Positions 2,226 to 7,815 of a DNA stretch of 64,000 bases are shown one piece after another; positions within the stretch are counted from its first letter, which is position 1; every line of letters begins with the position of its first letter. The notes beneath the pieces were generated by a model. That model had not been told where the DNA came from. It searched no databases and saw only the letters and a list, made by a program, of their open reading frames with translations. A program made the position numbers and the translations under genes. Origin of the DNA: Mangrovimonas spongiae (GTDB lineage: Bacteria > Bacteroidota > Bacteroidia > Flavobacteriales > Flavobacteriaceae); NCBI RefSeq assembly GCF_003944795.1, contig NZ_RWBG01000001.1, positions 868,001 to 932,000 on the forward strand, read 5' to 3'.

Positions 2226-2777
2226 TTAAAACCAAGTTTTTTCCATACAATCTGCCATAGCATTTCTAGCTCTATGGATAATTACCCAAAGGTTAGACGC
2301 AGTAATATTTAATTCATTACAAATAGTCTCGGTATCAAGACCTTCAATTGTTTTCATTCTAAAAACGCTAGCTTGTTTTTCGGGAAGTTTGTCTAAGCAT
2401 TTAAAAATGGCATCACCTAATTCGTCGTTTTCTAAATCATCTTCAGCAGTTTTGTCGTAAGGATCGGCAACTTGTTCTTCTAACCAGTCACCATCATTGT
2501 CTTCTGCATTATAACTCATTCTTACTTCTGCTTGCCCTTTTTTAGAATTTATTTTACGGTAATAGTCAATTATTTTTCGTTTTAAAATAGCAATAAGCCA
2601 CGTACGTTCGCTGGCATTGCCTTTAAAGTTTTTCATAGATTTTAATGCCGCAAAAAACGTGTCTTGAACTAAATCCTTAGCCATTTCACGGTCGTTAACA
2701 CGTGAAATAGTGTAGTTAAAAAGATAATCGGAGTATTTGTTTATCCAATTATCAGGATTTAGTTTGTGGGTTGGCAT
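2226..2777 (-). CDS. ECF-type RNA polymerase sigma factor
   Basis: A 183-residue sigma-70 family protein with region 2 (YLFNYTISRVND...AKDLVQDTFFAALKS, residues about 17-50) and region 4 (LPEKQASVFRMKTIEG...ICNELNITASNLWVIIHRAR, about 130-175). It would direct RNA polymerase to a small regulon, probably stress related. I start it at the ATG at 2777 because the longer frame needs a TTG start, and a purine-rich stretch precedes this ATG. The small Cys/His protein follows at once and may be its regulator. The C-terminus MEKTWF resembles the TIGR02943-type group, from memory. Confidence 0.9.
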   Translation of the reverse strand: MPTHKLNPDNWINKYSDYLFNYTISRVNDREMAKDLVQDTFFAALKSMKNFKGNASERTWLIAILKRKIIDYYRKINSKKGQAEVRMSYNAEDNDGDWLEEQVADPYDKTAEDDLENDELGDAIFKCLDKLPEKQASVFRMKTIEGLDTETICNELNITASNLWVIIHRARNAMADCMEKTWF

Positions 2778-2822
2778 TTTCTTTTTCAAGGGTTTACTCA
2801 AAGTTAGGTAAAAAAATTAGTT

Positions 2823-3227
2823 CTATAACTTATTCATGTAATATGTTAGTAAGAAGGTAAAGCTAAAATATAACCACAATAATGAAAACAAGATATGAAT
2901 TACGGTTTCAAATATTTTGCCTTTCCATAATTTAGGAGAATACACAAAGAATTGAAACAATAGTCTGAAACTCCAAAATACACCTAGTCCTAATGTTGTT
3001 TTTTTACCTAATAAAGTTTCGGTTAGTTCTACTGAAGAAGTAATGCATAGCAATCCCATTAAGCCAACTGTAATTGCAATAAAGAATGTATGAATTCGCA
3101 TCATTTGATTATTAATTAAACTCAAATGTTTTAGTTCTTTATTCCACTTAAAATACTTTGGGAAAGCAATGTGGATACATGCTAGTACTAGTAAAAGATA
3201 GCCCGCTATTTTTATATGAATTATCAT
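2823..3227 (-). CDS. Small four-helix membrane protein
   Basis: A 134-residue protein with four predicted membrane helices and conserved-looking polar spots (H19 in the first helix, MMRIHTFF after the first loop). The start at ATG 3227 lies ten bases after the stop of the methyltransferase gene. A longer frame to 3359 would overlap that gene by over 120 bases and is rejected. It is the last gene of the leftward GbsR-DoxX-DUF2071-methyltransferase cluster. I do not recognise a named family, and the role is unknown, presumably linked to membrane or lipid functions of the cluster. Confidence 0.75.
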   Translation of the reverse strand: MIIHIKIAGYLLLVLACIHIAFPKYFKWNKELKHLSLINNQMMRIHTFFIAITVGLMGLLCITSSVELTETLLGKKTTLGLGVFWSFRLLFQFFVYSPKLWKGKIFETVIHILFSLLWLYFSFTFLLTYYMNKL

Positions 3228-3237
3228 AATGTGTTTA

Positions 3238-3990
3238 TTAAGGTTGGCAATTGAATACTGACATAAAAGGAGTGAATTTATTTTCGTTAAACGTTGAGAA
3301 ACCAGCATTTTTAAAAGCTGTTTCCCAATGCTTTCTTGAAAAGAAATGTGTAAAACCAACAGAAAAAGCCAAAAAGTTTGGAAAGTCTCGTAAGTGTTCT
3401 ACCATAATGAGTTTTCCGTTAGGTTTACAGATTCTGTGGCATTCTTTTAAAAATTGAACTTTTTCATTAAAAGATCGAATTTCATGAGCTGCTGAAAGAA
3501 GAAAAATAATGTCTACAGAATTTGTTTGAAGCGGAATGTAATCAGTTTTTATTTGTGAAGTGTTAGGGTAGGTTAAACTTACTTTTCTTGCTCTAACAAT
3601 TGCAGGTTCTGTATGTTGTTCAGCATTATAAAAATCAAATACCTGAAGTTTTGATTTTGGAAATTTATTCTTCAAAATATAGCTTGTTTCATCAAAACCT
3701 GCATTAATGTTTACTGCTAGCTTTTTTTCAGAATCTTCAAGTTGTAATGATTTTAGCCAATCAAAATTATAGTAACCTGAAAAATCGTAGACATAAGCCG
3801 AAACTATCAATGGCATCAATAATCCATATAAGAATAGACCTATAATTATCCATAATAGTGCTTGCGACCACTGAAAATATAATTGACTTAAAATTATTAT
3901 TGTAATTGCTGTAATTCCTATAACATAAAAGTGTCTGTTAAAGCTTAAAATGTTTAGGACGCCTTGAAATTTTTTTCGTTTTGTTTCCAT
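3238..3990 (-). CDS. Membrane-anchored SAM methyltransferase-like protein
   Basis: A 250-residue protein with two N-terminal membrane helices (about residues 20-65) followed by a class I methyltransferase-like fold. Support comes from the acidic strand VDIIFLLSAAHEIR (motif II/post-I region), the HRICKPNGKLIMVEH motif typical of Methyltransf_11/ubiE-type proteins, and KNAGF near the end. The glycine-rich motif I is unusual: it reads NINAGFDETSY instead of DxGxGxG. I chose the ATG at 3990 over a TTG at 4014 because a GGAAAGAAAG stretch precedes it. It overlaps the upstream DUF2071 gene by 37 bases, implying translational coupling. Substrate unknown. Confidence 0.8.
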   Translation of the reverse strand: METKRKKFQGVLNILSFNRHFYVIGITAITIIILSQLYFQWSQALLWIIIGLFLYGLLMPLIVSAYVYDFSGYYNFDWLKSLQLEDSEKKLAVNINAGFDETSYILKNKFPKSKLQVFDFYNAEQHTEPAIVRARKVSLTYPNTSQIKTDYIPLQTNSVDIIFLLSAAHEIRSFNEKVQFLKECHRICKPNGKLIMVEHLRDFPNFLAFSVGFTHFFSRKHWETAFKNAGFSTFNENKFTPFMSVFNCQP

Positions 3991-4721
3991 AATTCTTTCT
4001 TTCCTTTTTTCCAATAATACGGGATGTGTTCAATAATAAATGCGTTTGCTAGATGATGGTTTTTTAATTTAAGGGCATTGATAAACTCAAATTTATACTC
4101 AATTACTTTTAACGGTTTTGGTTTCCAGTTTTGTCTTACACCTTCAATAATCAATACTTCTTTTTCCACTTTATTATAAGTAAATGTAAAGGGTAAAGGA
4201 CCAGCAAATCGTCGTGCTTCTTTCCAGCTTAAAAACGGTGAGTTTTTAGGTAAACCTGTAGCTTTATCATCTTTTTTGTAAGTGATTTTAAAATTTGATT
4301 TTTTAGAGGTTATTTCAACATTGTTTTTGGTTTTTATTTTTGTAATATCAGTAGTTGTATAGTTATAATGGGTAAAAATGTTGCCCATGAAGGCCATTTT
4401 CTGTTTATCAGTTTCTGACTTTATGATGTATAATCCGCGTAAACGTTTGCCTTTGTTAGTGGTGTAGCGCACAAAAATGCGATAGCCAATTAAGAAAAAA
4501 TCATTACCTAATAATTTTGGAAATCCTTTAGGACGTAAATTTTTGGTTTGTACCATGGCTACAGCTATGAATGCCCATTTATCTTGAAATGTGTCTAGTT
4601 GTAAACAATCAGGTATTAAGGGTTCCAACTGTTTTTTTGGCACGGCAAATGTTAATACAACCGAGCTTTCAAAAAAAGCTTCAACTCCAAACGGATGATT
4701 TTTAAGATTAGATAAGTTCAT
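3954..4721 (-). CDS. DUF2071 (YqjF-like) family protein
   Basis: A 255-residue soluble protein recognised as DUF2071 from its start (FFESSVVLTFAVPKKQLEPLIPDCLQLD), the phrase DKWAFIAVAMVQTKNLRPKG, and the GYRIFVRYTT strand. The family has an acetoacetate-decarboxylase-like barrel in known structures, but no established reaction. It overlaps the DoxX-like gene upstream by 14 bases and the methyltransferase downstream by 37 bases, so the three are one operon under the palindrome at 5102-5121. Confidence 0.85.
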   Translation of the reverse strand: MNLSNLKNHPFGVEAFFESSVVLTFAVPKKQLEPLIPDCLQLDTFQDKWAFIAVAMVQTKNLRPKGFPKLLGNDFFLIGYRIFVRYTTNKGKRLRGLYIIKSETDKQKMAFMGNIFTHYNYTTTDITKIKTKNNVEITSKKSNFKITYKKDDKATGLPKNSPFLSWKEARRFAGPLPFTFTYNKVEKEVLIIEGVRQNWKPKPLKVIEYKFEFINALKLKNHHLANAFIIEHIPYYWKKGKKELWKQNEKNFKAS

Positions 4722-5085
4722 GATGCGTTTTGTTAATATGAAAGTGATTGCAGTAAATAACGACGATTAATACAAGGGCGAACAATGCGTTTAGCTTTCC
4801 CCAGAATAATAGTTCAGGAGCGATTATGAATTCTAAAATATTCATGCTTGCTATAATTACAATTTGGGTAATAGTATTAAATTTTGTGGCTTTATTGGAT
4901 AGAATCCAAAACGCCATAGCAATTTCTAAAATTCCTATTATTATGGTTAAAGGTCTTGAGTAGTCTTCACTCAAAATTTTTGAAACAATTTGTTCGTGTC
5001 TAGGTACTGCATTTAAAACCTTACAAAACAGTCCGTTTATAAACCAGATACTTGCTATAATTATATTGTTTATTTTTTGATTCAT
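4708..5085 (-). CDS. DoxX-like small membrane protein
   Basis: A 125-residue protein with four hydrophobic helices. The start (IASIWFINGLFCKVLNAVPRHEQIV) and the ILEIAMAFWILS helix resemble DoxX-like membrane proteins of Bacteroidota. It is the first gene after the regulator, and a palindrome lies 16 bases upstream of its ATG. Its end overlaps the DUF2071 start by 14 bases. The precise role is unknown. DoxX relatives are often tied to redox or thiosulfate functions, but nothing here proves that. Confidence 0.75.
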   Translation of the reverse strand: MNQKINNIIIASIWFINGLFCKVLNAVPRHEQIVSKILSEDYSRPLTIIIGILEIAMAFWILSNKATKFNTITQIVIIASMNILEFIIAPELLFWGKLNALFALVLIVVIYCNHFHINKTHHELI

Positions 5086-5101: not shown

Positions 5102-5121
5102 CTTTCAAAAAATATTGAAAG
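5102..5121. promoter_or_regulatory. Palindromic operator candidate in front of the DoxX-like gene
   Basis: The inverted repeat is CTTTCAA-N6-TTGAAAG and lies 16 bases before the DoxX-like ATG and 18 bases after the GbsR-type regulator stop. A copy identical at 19 of 20 positions lies just upstream of the regulator gene. Two copies flanking one MarR/GbsR gene and its neighbours are what one expects of its own binding site. Binding is inference. Confidence 0.7.
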
Positions 5122-5138
5122 ATCATTGCAAATTTTTT

Positions 5139-5642
5139 TTATTTAAAAAGTTTAAGTAATGATTTTGTTAACCAATTTTGCTTTTGGTTTACAGCCTTAT
5201 TAATCATAAGGTCTATTGTATCGGTTAATTCGTGTAGTGCTTTAGTTTGTTTTATTAGTTCTTTAGTGTTTTTTGTGCCATCATCTTCTATGGATGAAAC
5301 GTCTTTAAGTATTTTTATAACTGGCTTTATCTCACGTCTGCTTCGTTCTTTAGCTACAATCCTTGCTAATTCTTGTACATCTTTTTCTGTTGTAAAGTAT
5401 TCTCTACGTTCACCAGGGATAATTTCTTTAGTAACAATCCCCCAATCCATTAACTGCCTTAGATTCATGCTTGTATTACCTCTGGATATTTTTAGTTCGT
5501 CCATGATGTCTTCCATAGATAAAGGTTTTGTGGCTATAAAAAGAAGGGCTTGTATTTGTGCCATAGCTTTATTTATGCCCCAAAGAGAACCTAAACTTCC
5601 CCATGTGCTAATAAATTTGTCTTTGGCTTCTTTGTATTTCAT
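5139..5642 (-). CDS. GbsR/MarR family transcriptional regulator
   Basis: A 167-residue winged-helix protein of the GbsR type. It has the N-terminal helix FISTWGSLGSLWGINKAMAQIQALLF, then the HTH (MEDIMDELKISRGNTSMNLRQL, about residues 43-64) and a wing (VTKEIIPGERREYFTTEKD). GbsR relatives act as repressors of osmolyte or small-molecule genes. Here the likely targets are its own gene and the DoxX-DUF2071-methyltransferase-membrane protein genes, because both are preceded by the same 20-base palindrome. The -7 box TATATTTG sits five bases before the ATG, so the mRNA may be nearly leaderless. Confidence 0.88.
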   Translation of the reverse strand: MKYKEAKDKFISTWGSLGSLWGINKAMAQIQALLFIATKPLSMEDIMDELKISRGNTSMNLRQLMDWGIVTKEIIPGERREYFTTEKDVQELARIVAKERSRREIKPVIKILKDVSSIEDDGTKNTKELIKQTKALHELTDTIDLMINKAVNQKQNWLTKSLLKLFK

Positions 5643-5646
5643 AAGA

Positions 5647-5654
5647 CAAATATA
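5647..5654 (-). promoter_or_regulatory. -7 promoter box of the GbsR-type gene
   Basis: TATATTTG on the minus strand matches TAnnTTTG. A TTTG (plus-strand 5673-5676) lies 18 bases further upstream and is part of the palindrome at 5669-5688, so a protein bound there would cover the -33 box. This arrangement supports autorepression. Confidence 0.5.
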
Positions 5655-5668
5655 TAAAACATTTTAAA

Positions 5669-5688
5669 TTTTCAAAAAATATTGAAAG
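5669..5688. promoter_or_regulatory. Second palindromic operator candidate, in front of the GbsR-type gene
   Basis: TTTCAA-N6-TTGAAA with the same six-base centre AAAATA as the copy at 5102-5121. Only the outermost base of one arm differs. It lies 26 bases before the regulator's ATG and includes its probable -33 box. Confidence 0.7.
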
Positions 5689-5702: not shown

Positions 5703-5790
5703 AGTTTGTTATTCTGAGATCAGTGAAAAATTCCTTGTCAAGAAAGGATGAGATGCTGAATCAAGTTCAGCATGACAAGCTCTACTTCTC
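5703..5790. repeat. Intergenic repeat-like element with TGCTGAA hairpin
   Basis: The stretch holds TTATTCTGAG, then GATGAGATGCTGAATCAAG directly followed by TTCAGCATGACAAG. ATGCTGAA and TTCAGCAT form a hairpin with a short loop. The wording strongly resembles the short interspersed repeats seen between genes of many Flavobacteriia (TCATGCTGAACTTG...TTCAGCATCTC), recalled rather than searched. It lies just after the M3 peptidase stop and could also help end its transcript. Its right end runs into that gene's last codons. Confidence 0.6.
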
Positions 5791-7815
5791 AATTAACCCT
5801 GCGCGTTTTAATAAAGCTTCGGGTTGGGGTTCTTTACCGCGAAAACGTTTGTACAACGTCATGGGATCTTGAGTGCCACCTTGAGAGAGTACATTTTCTT
5901 TAAATTTCTCTGCTACGGTTTTACTAAAAATACCTTCTTCTTTAAAATATTCAAAAGCATCGGCATCTAACACTTCTGCCCATTTATAGCTATAATATCC
6001 AGAAGAATACCCGCCTTGAAAAATATGAGAAAACGAGGTGCTCATACAGTTTTCTGGCGTATCTGGATAGAGTTTGGTGTTTTCAAAAGCCTTAAGTTCA
6101 TGGGCTTTTACATTTTTTATAAGTGAAGGATCCTGCCCATGCCAACTCATGTCTAACAAACCAAAGCTTAATTGACGTAACGTTTGCATACCTTCGTGAA
6201 AAGTTGATGACGCTTTAATTTTTTCTATTAAATCCATAGGAATCACTTCACCAGTTTCGTAATGTGTGGCAAACAACTCTAAAGCCTCTTTTTCGTAACA
6301 CCAATTTTCTAACACTTGGCTTGGTAGTTCAACAAAATCCCAAAAAACACTTGTTCCCGAAAGGCTAGGGTAGGTTGTATTTGCTAACATGCCATGTAAG
6401 GCGTGACCAAATTCGTGAAATAAGGTTGTAACCTCATTAAAGGTTAATAACGATGGTTTTGTTTTTGTTGGTTTGGTGAAATTGCATACAATAGAAATAT
6501 GTGGTCTACTGTTTTCATTGTTTTTAACATATTGTGGCTTGTAAACAGTCATCCAAGCACCATTGCGTTTTCCTTCTCGCGGAAAAAAATCGGCATAGAA
6601 AATAGAAATATAATTTCCGTCGTTATCGGTGACTTTATAGGTTAATACATCTGGATGGTATTTATCAATGGTGTCAATTTCTTCAAAATTTAACCCGTAA
6701 AGTTTATGGGCAATCGTGAAAACGCCGTTAATAACGTTTTCAAGTTTAAAGTAGGGTTTTAGCTTTTCATCATCGAGATCGAAAAGTTTTTGTTTTAGTT
6801 TTTCTGAATAATAAGCGCCATCCCATTTTTGTAGCTGTTCGATATTATCCAAGTTTTTAGCAAACTCGCTTAGTTTTTTAAACTCTTTAGTTGCAGCAGG
6901 CTTGGCTTTTTCTAAGAGGTCGTTTAAAAAGGTGTTTACGGTTTCTGGATTTTTAGCCATACGTTCTTCGAGAACAAAATGCGCGTGGGTTTTATACCCT
7001 AATAAATTAGCGCGTTTATGACGCAGATTGGCGATTTTTAAAACAATATCTTGGTTGTCAAGATTATCATTATGAAATCCTTTTGACCCAAATGCAAGCG
7101 CTAGTTTTTTTCGTAATTCACGATTATCTGCATAGGTCATAAATGGAATATAACTAGGATATTGTAATGTAATAATCCAGCCTTCTTTTCCTTTTTGTTC
7201 GGCAGTTTGTTTGGCATCTTCTTTAGCGCTTTCAGGAAGTCCAGATAAATCGGCTTCGTTGGTAATATGAAGTTCGTATTTGTTAGTTTCTGCTAGAACA
7301 TTTTCACCAAATGTAAGTTTTAGTTTACTTAGCTCTTTATCTATTTCGCGGAGTTGCAGTTTTTTGTCTTCTGGTAAGTTAGCGCCATTTCTAGAAAAGC
7401 TTTTATATTTTTTATCTAAAAGTGTTTGTTGTTCTTTATTAAGGTTTAAAGAGTCTTTTTGATTATAAACTTCTTTAACACGTTTAAATAATGCTTCATT
7501 TAAAGTAATGTCGTTACTAAACTCAGAAAGCAAAGGCGATACTTCTTGTGCTATTTTTTGAATGTCTTCGTTGGTTTCGGCAGAATTCAGGTTGAAGAAA
7601 ATACTAGACACTCTATCCAACTGTTCACCAGAGAAATCTAAAGCTTCAATTGTATTGCTAAAAGTAGGTGGTTCTGGATTATGAGTAATGTTGTTTATTT
7701 CGGCCTTAGCATGTTCTATTGCTTTTTTAAAAGCGGGAAGGAAATGGGCGTTTTTTATTTTTGAAAAAGGCGCTGTATTGTATTGTGTATCAAAAGGTTG
7801 TTTTAAAATAATCAT
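5782..7815 (-). CDS. M3 family metallopeptidase (peptidyl-dipeptidase Dcp-like)
   Basis: A 677-residue zinc metallopeptidase with the M3 signature HEFGHALHG starting at H467, followed by the conserved GTSVFWDFVELPSQVLENW region and the C-terminal GGYSSGYYSYKWAEVL signature. These identify the oligopeptidase A/Dcp group, which cleaves dipeptides or short fragments from oligopeptides. No signal peptide is seen (MIILKQPFDTQYNTAPFSKI), so it is probably cytoplasmic. Length matches the family. It is transcribed alone: a repeat element follows it and a candidate small RNA promoter points away from its start. Confidence 0.93.
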   Translation of the reverse strand: MIILKQPFDTQYNTAPFSKIKNAHFLPAFKKAIEHAKAEINNITHNPEPPTFSNTIEALDFSGEQLDRVSSIFFNLNSAETNEDIQKIAQEVSPLLSEFSNDITLNEALFKRVKEVYNQKDSLNLNKEQQTLLDKKYKSFSRNGANLPEDKKLQLREIDKELSKLKLTFGENVLAETNKYELHITNEADLSGLPESAKEDAKQTAEQKGKEGWIITLQYPSYIPFMTYADNRELRKKLALAFGSKGFHNDNLDNQDIVLKIANLRHKRANLLGYKTHAHFVLEERMAKNPETVNTFLNDLLEKAKPAATKEFKKLSEFAKNLDNIEQLQKWDGAYYSEKLKQKLFDLDDEKLKPYFKLENVINGVFTIAHKLYGLNFEEIDTIDKYHPDVLTYKVTDNDGNYISIFYADFFPREGKRNGAWMTVYKPQYVKNNENSRPHISIVCNFTKPTKTKPSLLTFNEVTTLFHEFGHALHGMLANTTYPSLSGTSVFWDFVELPSQVLENWCYEKEALELFATHYETGEVIPMDLIEKIKASSTFHEGMQTLRQLSFGLLDMSWHGQDPSLIKNVKAHELKAFENTKLYPDTPENCMSTSFSHIFQGGYSSGYYSYKWAEVLDADAFEYFKEEGIFSKTVAEKFKENVLSQGGTQDPMTLYKRFRGKEPQPEALLKRAGLIEK

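Follow-up and report, generated by a model that had tools for sequence, protein, structure and literature searches.

A GbsR-type regulator with paired operators as the constant part of a variable, probably self-regulating gene unit in Flavobacteriaceae

The GbsR-type regulator gene of Mangrovimonas spongiae analysed here is accompanied by two operator-like palindromes that recur, at the same places relative to the regulator, in its close relatives, while the genes that follow vary from one species to the next. We believe, with a probability of roughly 0.7, that this is a local self-regulating unit in which a cysteine-free GbsR-type protein represses both its own promoter and a swappable operon of membrane- and lipid-type genes. 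Regulator and operators would form the constant frame of the unit, whereas the downstream genes (the cargo) would be gained, lost and rearranged between species.

The window, that is, the whole stretch of 64,000 nucleotides that was analysed, belongs to a genome of 2.77 Mb in 9 contigs; among named organisms, its closest relatives found belong to the Flavobacteriaceae, for example Hanstruepera. In the order of transcription, all on the minus strand, an M3-family oligopeptidase gene is followed by palindrome 1, the regulator gene, palindrome 2, four tightly packed cargo genes, an ECF sigma factor gene and an 87-aa open reading frame (Table 1). The third cargo gene, given as 3238-4014 in the list of open reading frames, is taken from its conserved ATG (3238-3990). 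No recombinase is found by Pfam among the five genes of the unit in the window. A dispersed palindromic repeat, CATGCTGAACTTGATTCAGCATCT, lies at 5751-5774, between the M3 stop codon and operator 1; it has 10 copies in the genome at up to two mismatches, some of them paired about 1.2 kb apart, and the reversed control has none.

Table 1. Features of the regulator unit and its neighbours, with positions in the 64,000-nucleotide window.
Feature	Position	Strand	Remarks
M3-family oligopeptidase	5782-7815	-	core neighbour, other side of block; PF01432, E 4.5e-144
Operator 1	5669-5688	-	CTTTCAATATTTTTTGAAAA on the minus strand; upstream of regulator
Predicted -33 TTG	5673-5675	-	within operator 1, by sequence
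Regulator promoter -7 box	5647-5654	-	TATATTTG; four bases ahead of ATG
GbsR-type MarR regulator	5139-5642	-	167 aa, no cysteine; PF12802
TTT element	5130-5132	-	8 bases upstream of operator 2; conserved in 79/80 loci
Operator 2	5102-5121	-	CTTTCAATATTTTTTGAAAG on the minus strand; regulator/cargo junction
Cargo gene 1, DoxX_3 membrane protein	4708-5085	-	125 aa; PF13781, E 3.9e-16
Cargo gene 2, DUF2071 protein (divergent type a)	3954-4721	-	255 aa; PF09844, E 3.1e-18
Cargo gene 3, membrane-anchored methyltransferase-like protein	3238-3990	-	250 aa from conserved ATG; PF08241
Cargo gene 4, small membrane protein	2823-3227	-	134 aa; start inferred from orthologues
ECF -7 box	2799-2806	-	TAACTTTG; belongs to neighbouring ECF sigma gene
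ECF sigma factor	2226-2777	-	core neighbour, outside cargo count

The original prediction was of two near-identical inverted repeats, 26 bases from the regulator gene and 16 bases from the DoxX gene, respectively, and direct reading bears out their sequence, place and distances: TTTTCAAAAAATATTGAAAG at 5669-5688 and CTTTCAAAAAATATTGAAAG at 5102-5121 are identical at 19 of 20 positions. The predicted -33 box, also placed by that prediction within the regulator palindrome, does lie inside it. Their description as two arms around a free six-base spacer has to be corrected, since site 1 is a 20-bp palindrome throughout and its spacer is conserved. How rare such sites are depends on the tolerance of the search. 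The 14-base arm pattern with up to three mismatches occurs at chance level in the window (11 matches, 11.46 expected), and with at most one mismatch just the two sites appear in 64 kb, versus 0.033 per dinucleotide-shuffled window (60 shuffles). The pattern YTTTCAAN6TTGAAAR is matched exactly at three places in the whole 2.77-Mb genome, the third of which (L003) falls within the 3' end of a 491-aa open reading frame; one mismatch raises this to 25 places versus 18 for the reversed control, so the additional relaxed sites are close to noise. A stricter pattern derived from the relatives occurs at 10 places in 60 genomes, nine of them beside a regulator gene and the tenth (L103, in G030) inside a coding sequence, and at none in the reversed control. 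The motif is thus not spread at random density, as judged from the genome scans and shuffles. A wider regulon was considered and rejected, because the relaxed sites in the own genome are near noise and the sites in L003 and L103 lie within coding sequence.

Conservation at the orthologous regulators of relatives points the same way. From 184 relatives found, the 80 best were kept as named loci, all at least 80% identical, and this set is therefore biased towards close relatives; every one of its loci has site 1 with no more than two arm mismatches (57 exact, 18 with one mismatch and 5 with two), and 77 have site 2 at the same tolerance. Both sites occur together with at most two mismatches in 77 of the 80 loci and with at most one in 60. 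The 956 kb of these loci contain 144 places with no more than one arm mismatch. Of these, 138 fall in the two slots, and four of the six remaining places add a third site to the operon, one gene deeper into the cargo. Such a third operator is seen in Psychroserpens-type and related loci, at 6845 in L050 and in L084, 6851 in L065 and 6839 in L095. In Gelidibacter japonicus the locus is present with the same layout on two scaffolds (L039 and L040, near-identical and both counted among the 80), by true duplication or as an assembly artefact.

Beyond these relatives, 126 genomes in an even draw of 395 Bacteroidota carry the regulator at E 1e-15. The loci read from this draw are the 29 best-scoring of the 126 (window excluded; two, G040 and G053, had been seen earlier) and are, for that reason, also biased towards close relatives. 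Site 1 is present in 28 of them, and 23 have site 2 at the junction; among the six misses, three have a site with three mismatches and one runs off the contig end. In 26 of the 29, one of the first two genes is of a known cargo type. A more distant set comprised 20 stretches, four of which (L226, L231, L239 and L240) had no regulator ORF call and were set aside, and four of the 16 that were read (L241 to L244) are larger views of genomes in the 29-locus set. In the 12 readable loci from more distant families, a plain palindrome scan finds a TTTCA-to-TGAAA palindrome in five, and known cargo types are found in six, so that the pattern thins out. Two of the 13 regulator-bearing genomes in the 60-genome set, G039 and G049, lack such a site near the regulator even with two mismatches allowed.

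The first operator is tied to the promoter of the regulator by a conserved geometry. Across the loci, 8 to 10 of its 10 base pairs are symmetrical, so that the palindrome is almost perfect; its consensus is CTTTCAATAATTATTGAAAG, preceded by AAA and followed by TTT. The -33 consensus is TTG, and this element stands 18-20 nt from the -7 box in 76/80 loci, the box itself (TAnnTTTG) being present at the regulator promoter in 77/80. The distance from the -7 box to the start of the operator is 34-36 nt in 76/80 loci and is kept even where the start codon is farther away; in 58/80 loci, and also in the window, the box lies exactly four bases from the ATG. The flavobacterial sigma-A box, TAnnTTTG, is located at -12 to -5 (PMC9723704). 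Since a box at this position ends four bases before the ATG, transcription is predicted to start at the A of the ATG, and the regulator mRNA is probably leaderless in the window and in the 58 loci, a class that accounts for 5.5% of mRNAs in the flavobacterial species described (PMC9723704). Relative to the predicted start, operator 1 reaches from about -46 to about -27, with its centre near -36. Because the palindrome covers the -33 element, autorepression is the natural reading: a dimer of the regulator would bind the 20-bp site on its own sigma-A promoter and would thereby repress its own transcript. It is improbable that the regulator instead acts as an activator or has a dual role. Some proteins that overlap the -35 region do activate from a position such as the one centred near -36, and the MarR superfamily is described as including activators too, but those GbsR-type proteins that have been studied (GbsR, OpuAR and CydE) are repressors by description (PMC6207618). 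Moreover, help from an activator seems superfluous at a promoter that already has a good -7 box and a -33 TTG.

The protein itself is of the GbsR type. Its assignment as a GbsR/MarR-type regulator is supported by a PF12802 match above cut-off and by homology, along most of the protein, to MJ223 (1ku9), its best relative by sequence among solved structures: the 1ku9 profile matches positions 3-152 with an E value of 6.1e-25, and together with the winged helix this places the protein in the GbsR family. The structural model, which has a pLDDT of 90.5 and is less certain over the final 20 residues, aligns with 1ku9 over 148 residues at 3.5 A with a Z score of 15.0, tied with 5jbr at 15.6. Cysteine is absent from 85 of 88 regulators, which makes a thiol switch unlikely; a ligand of another kind would release both operators. 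The model of the choline regulator CudC (NF047500) scores 46.6 bits against a cut-off of 218, that is, the protein is related to this subfamily and does not belong to it, and Pfam finds no genes for osmoprotectant synthesis or transport next door among the window genes and the cargo representatives, which stand for all clusters of at least three members except cluster 13. The aromatic cage for choline is described as a feature of the osmostress branch only, which the other GbsR-type groups lack (PMC6207618).

Operator 2 goes with the junction between regulator and cargo rather than with any particular cargo gene. It lies 15-24 bases past the regulator stop codon in 77/80 loci, regardless of the gene that comes next, the start of which is 16 bases away in the window and mostly less than 40 in relatives. 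The second palindrome had originally been assigned to the DoxX-DUF2071-methyltransferase genes, and this assignment fails on two counts: most of the 80 relatives place other genes behind site 2, and in 7 of the 15 loci that have the module it stands further down, without an operator of its own. Of the original proposal, a compact local unit with four cargo genes stands; the tie of the palindrome to these particular genes does not. The TAnnTTTG box is absent from the junction, from -60 to +42 bases of the site 2 start, in all 80 loci (4.6 expected after shuffling). Because there is no sigma-A box at the junction, the cargo would probably be read from the regulator promoter, as one transcript with the regulator.

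In its make-up, site 2 departs from site 1. In relatives it is mostly an imperfect palindrome (5-9 of 10 pairs, mostly 6-8, versus the 8-10 of site 1), its core is a conserved strand-asymmetric TTTTC (TTTTT in the window), and a TTT stands at a fixed distance of 8 bases upstream. This asymmetric core with its fixed TTT is beyond what simple dimer binding explains; it may belong to a promoter, may gate the passage of polymerase, or may do both. A rival reading takes site 2 not for an internal lock but for an element of a promoter that the cargo has to itself and that an unusual or alternative sigma factor would recognise, perhaps that of the neighbouring ECF gene. The asymmetric core and the upstream TTT would suit such a promoter, as would the fact that the whole block is kept intact in L036, L101 and L102, where about 100 bases separate it from the regulator stop codon. 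However, the usual box is missing from every junction, there is scant room before the next start codon, and regulator and ECF gene lie on separate contigs in G013 and G035, so we regard a separate cargo promoter as rather unlikely. An RNA hairpin at site 2 is not supported: the flanking TTTAAA stretches can pair, yet there are no compensatory changes. When 20 of the 80 loci were folded, the mean z was -1.78 versus simple shuffles; the stem pair -8/22 is A-C in 11 and G-C in 3 of 92 rows, and pairing along the stem is 0.85 and still 0.75 when slid by one.

Under the autorepressor reading that we prefer, operator 2 would probably be a second lock that either stops RNA polymerase or pairs with operator 1, and this is the weakest step of the mechanism. 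The arrangement matches that of autoregulated MarR-type systems with paired operators, in which one palindrome lies at the regulator's own promoter and one at the regulated genes, site 2 being only partly palindromic in most relatives. A bolder proposal, which we hold only tentatively and consider somewhat less probable than its opposite, is that the frame of promoter, operator, regulator and second operator serves as a platform for expression from the chromosome well beyond one Bacteroidota family, a fixed, self-limiting switch for interchangeable cassettes of membrane- or lipid-modifying genes in which the asymmetric operator 2 both binds the regulator and gates transcription of the cargo. 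If so, one internal signal would evoke a different chemistry in each species.

The unit occupies a recurrent chromosomal position. It sits between the M3 peptidase gene and the ECF sigma gene, and the latter follows the cargo in 74 of the 80 named loci. In the set of 60 genomes, the ECF gene is present in 36 and the regulator in 13 (the own genome being in both counts). Loci were examined for 22 of the 27 regulator-less genomes that have the ECF gene. In 12 of the 22, including that of G002 from the same genus, M3 and ECF genes are less than 150 bases apart, as at an empty site; in five others the gap is 0.4-1.3 kb, and in the last five there is no M3 gene in the short stretch examined. On the evidence of these empty sites, the unit is an accessory block, some 3 kb long, that recurs at this position within the group. 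The core block at 1146-2777, which comprises the ECF sigma factor, the 87-aa open reading frame and a convergent gene for a 276-aa membrane protein (the latter two without a Pfam family above cut-off), is present with and without the regulator block. A -7 box lies within 60 bases of the ECF start codon in 67 of 73 filled loci and in 15 of 18 regulator-less loci with a placeable start; as the ECF gene thus has a box of its own, the cargo unit probably ends before it, and transcripts may read through from the cargo into the ECF gene. Membership of the ECF gene in the unit was rejected on the grounds of this box, its different distribution (36/60 versus 13/60 genomes) and the separate contigs in G013 and G035.

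Presence or absence at one site and turnover of the cargo are also what might be seen if variable genes at a fixed insertion point formed a phage-defence island. This is very improbable: nine of ten cargo proteins scanned have no PADLOC match, the lone match, of one methyltransferase to mad2, covers 142 residues only (E 2.7e-10) and is to be expected for a common fold, and other Bacteroidota carry cargo of the same types. The PADLOC scan of the ten proteins thus gives no known defence protein in the cargo.

The cargo pool of the 80 loci consists of DoxX proteins, two types of DUF2071 protein, methyltransferases, TIGR01777 oxidoreductases, DCC1-like proteins and small membrane proteins. The module of the window, DoxX-DUF2071(a)-methyltransferase-membrane protein, is found in 15 named loci; the pool also includes a pair of membrane proteins of about 115-140 aa, a TIGR01777 oxidoreductase or a CFA-like methyltransferase, and in a few loci a fatty-acid desaturase or a weakly SRPBCC-like protein (below cut-off). 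The DUF2071 protein of the window is 17-21% identical to five members of the second DUF2071 type. Cargo gene 4, which matches no Pfam family above cut-off, belongs to a cluster of 14 related open reading frames across the named loci. Among the 60 genomes, the small membrane pair occurs in 5, the window methyltransferase in 4, the cargo-type TIGR01777 protein in 5 and the CFA-like methyltransferase in 2; all four families are confined to regulator-bearing genomes, within about 2.5 kb downstream of the regulator, and none is found in the 47 regulator-less genomes. A TIGR01777 paralogue of about 30% identity, present in most genomes, was split off by identity (the cargo type being at least 44% identical). 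One genome (G049) has the regulator without any of the four families and another (G039) has the small membrane protein only.

This association with the regulator goes along with much turnover. Seven cargo types form 21 combinations in 70 loci (73 of the 80 have a full M3 gene, and 70 of those a cargo call), and on the M3 tree the combination changes at least 45 times, versus a mean of 55.8 and a minimum of 51 in 200 shuffles. The order of genes conflicts as well, TIGR01777 preceding the CFA-like gene in L057 and following it in L048. A strictly inherited operon was rejected on these grounds. Pairwise distances of cargo and M3 are still correlated (Spearman 0.17 to 0.84), and the sequences suggest a history of some inheritance and much turnover, with which both loss and exchange would be compatible.

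As to function, the types of protein encoded suggest that the cargo would remodel or protect the membrane in some way, a role that is read from family names, several of them weak matches. Motif I of class I methyltransferases usually follows a glycine-rich pattern, which cargo gene 3 does not show; the oddness of its motif I had been noted at the outset, and the motif is indeed both unusual and conserved, reading NINAGFDETS in 13 of 14 aligned sequences and NIHAGFDETS in the other. The model (pLDDT 82) has two long N-terminal membrane-type helices followed by a class I methyltransferase fold, and Foldseek gives 1007 PDB matches at E 0.001 or better, in keeping with a Rossmann methyltransferase fold, the best being 4a6d (E 1.5e-10, TM 0.48 by query). 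Because of the unusual conserved motif, methyltransferase activity is not to be assumed, and the protein may bind its cofactor differently.

It is conceivable, if doubtful, that the cargo serves a response to light or singlet oxygen akin to the LitR or RpoE-ChrR regulons. Those regulons also use methyltransferases and epimerase-like proteins, and TIGR01777 proteins, CFA-like methyltransferases and the fatty-acid desaturase of the cargo would fit such a response. CrtR, a MarR-type repressor of light-induced carotenoid genes in Corynebacterium, is a further parallel (PMC6739363). A mild point against this reading is that no photolyase, cryptochrome or carotenoid enzyme is found among the cargo representatives scanned with Pfam. 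A LitR/CarH or RpoE-ChrR regulon would be marked by a MerR-B12 or ChrR-type sensor together with photolyase-type genes; the sensor here is of the GbsR type. None of the present analyses shows a link of the unit to light, osmotic stress or defence.

Osmotic stress and respiration are the settings in which GbsR-type regulators are known, and for the Bacteroidetes group the reference study reports no consistent picture from gene neighbourhoods (PMC6207618). A consistent picture is offered here, of a single operator, a single gene arrangement and a shared pool of cargo families, which spans 80 named Flavobacteriaceae-type loci and can be traced, with losses, into other Bacteroidota. The operators provide a precise DNA target with which to find the ligand, making this regulator group directly testable. 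DUF2071, DoxX_3, TIGR01777, DCC1-like and several unnamed membrane families are tied to a single switch, which narrows their possible roles. Searches of the open-licence literature returned no paper on DUF2071 together with DoxX, no match to four operator strings, nothing related, by title, for GbsR with Flavobacteriaceae, and nothing on the unit, by title or start of abstract, for light, Dokdonia or the domain names.

Compared with known systems, the regulator promoter shares the TAnnTTTG -7 box with flavobacterial sigma-A promoters and differs in having it four bases before the ATG. GbsR and OpuAR of Bacillus are, like the protein described here, MJ223-type winged-helix regulators that are expected to be dimers and are encoded beside their would-be targets (PMC6207618). 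Unlike in their case, no choline, betaine or transporter family is found among the cargo clusters scanned. The cioRAB regulator is reportedly another GbsR-type regulator, of cytochrome bd genes. CydE, also linked to cytochrome bd genes, is described as a GbsR-type protein without the cage that responds to sulfate (PMC6207618). Both are of the same regulator family as the protein studied here and differ in their genes, since no cytochrome bd family occurs among the cargo clusters scanned. A further likeness, by description, is to the MarR-type CrtR of Corynebacterium, which represses membrane-lipid-type (carotenoid) genes beside its own gene and binds across promoter elements, and which differs in its divergent arrangement, its carotenoid genes and its dependence on light (PMC6739363).
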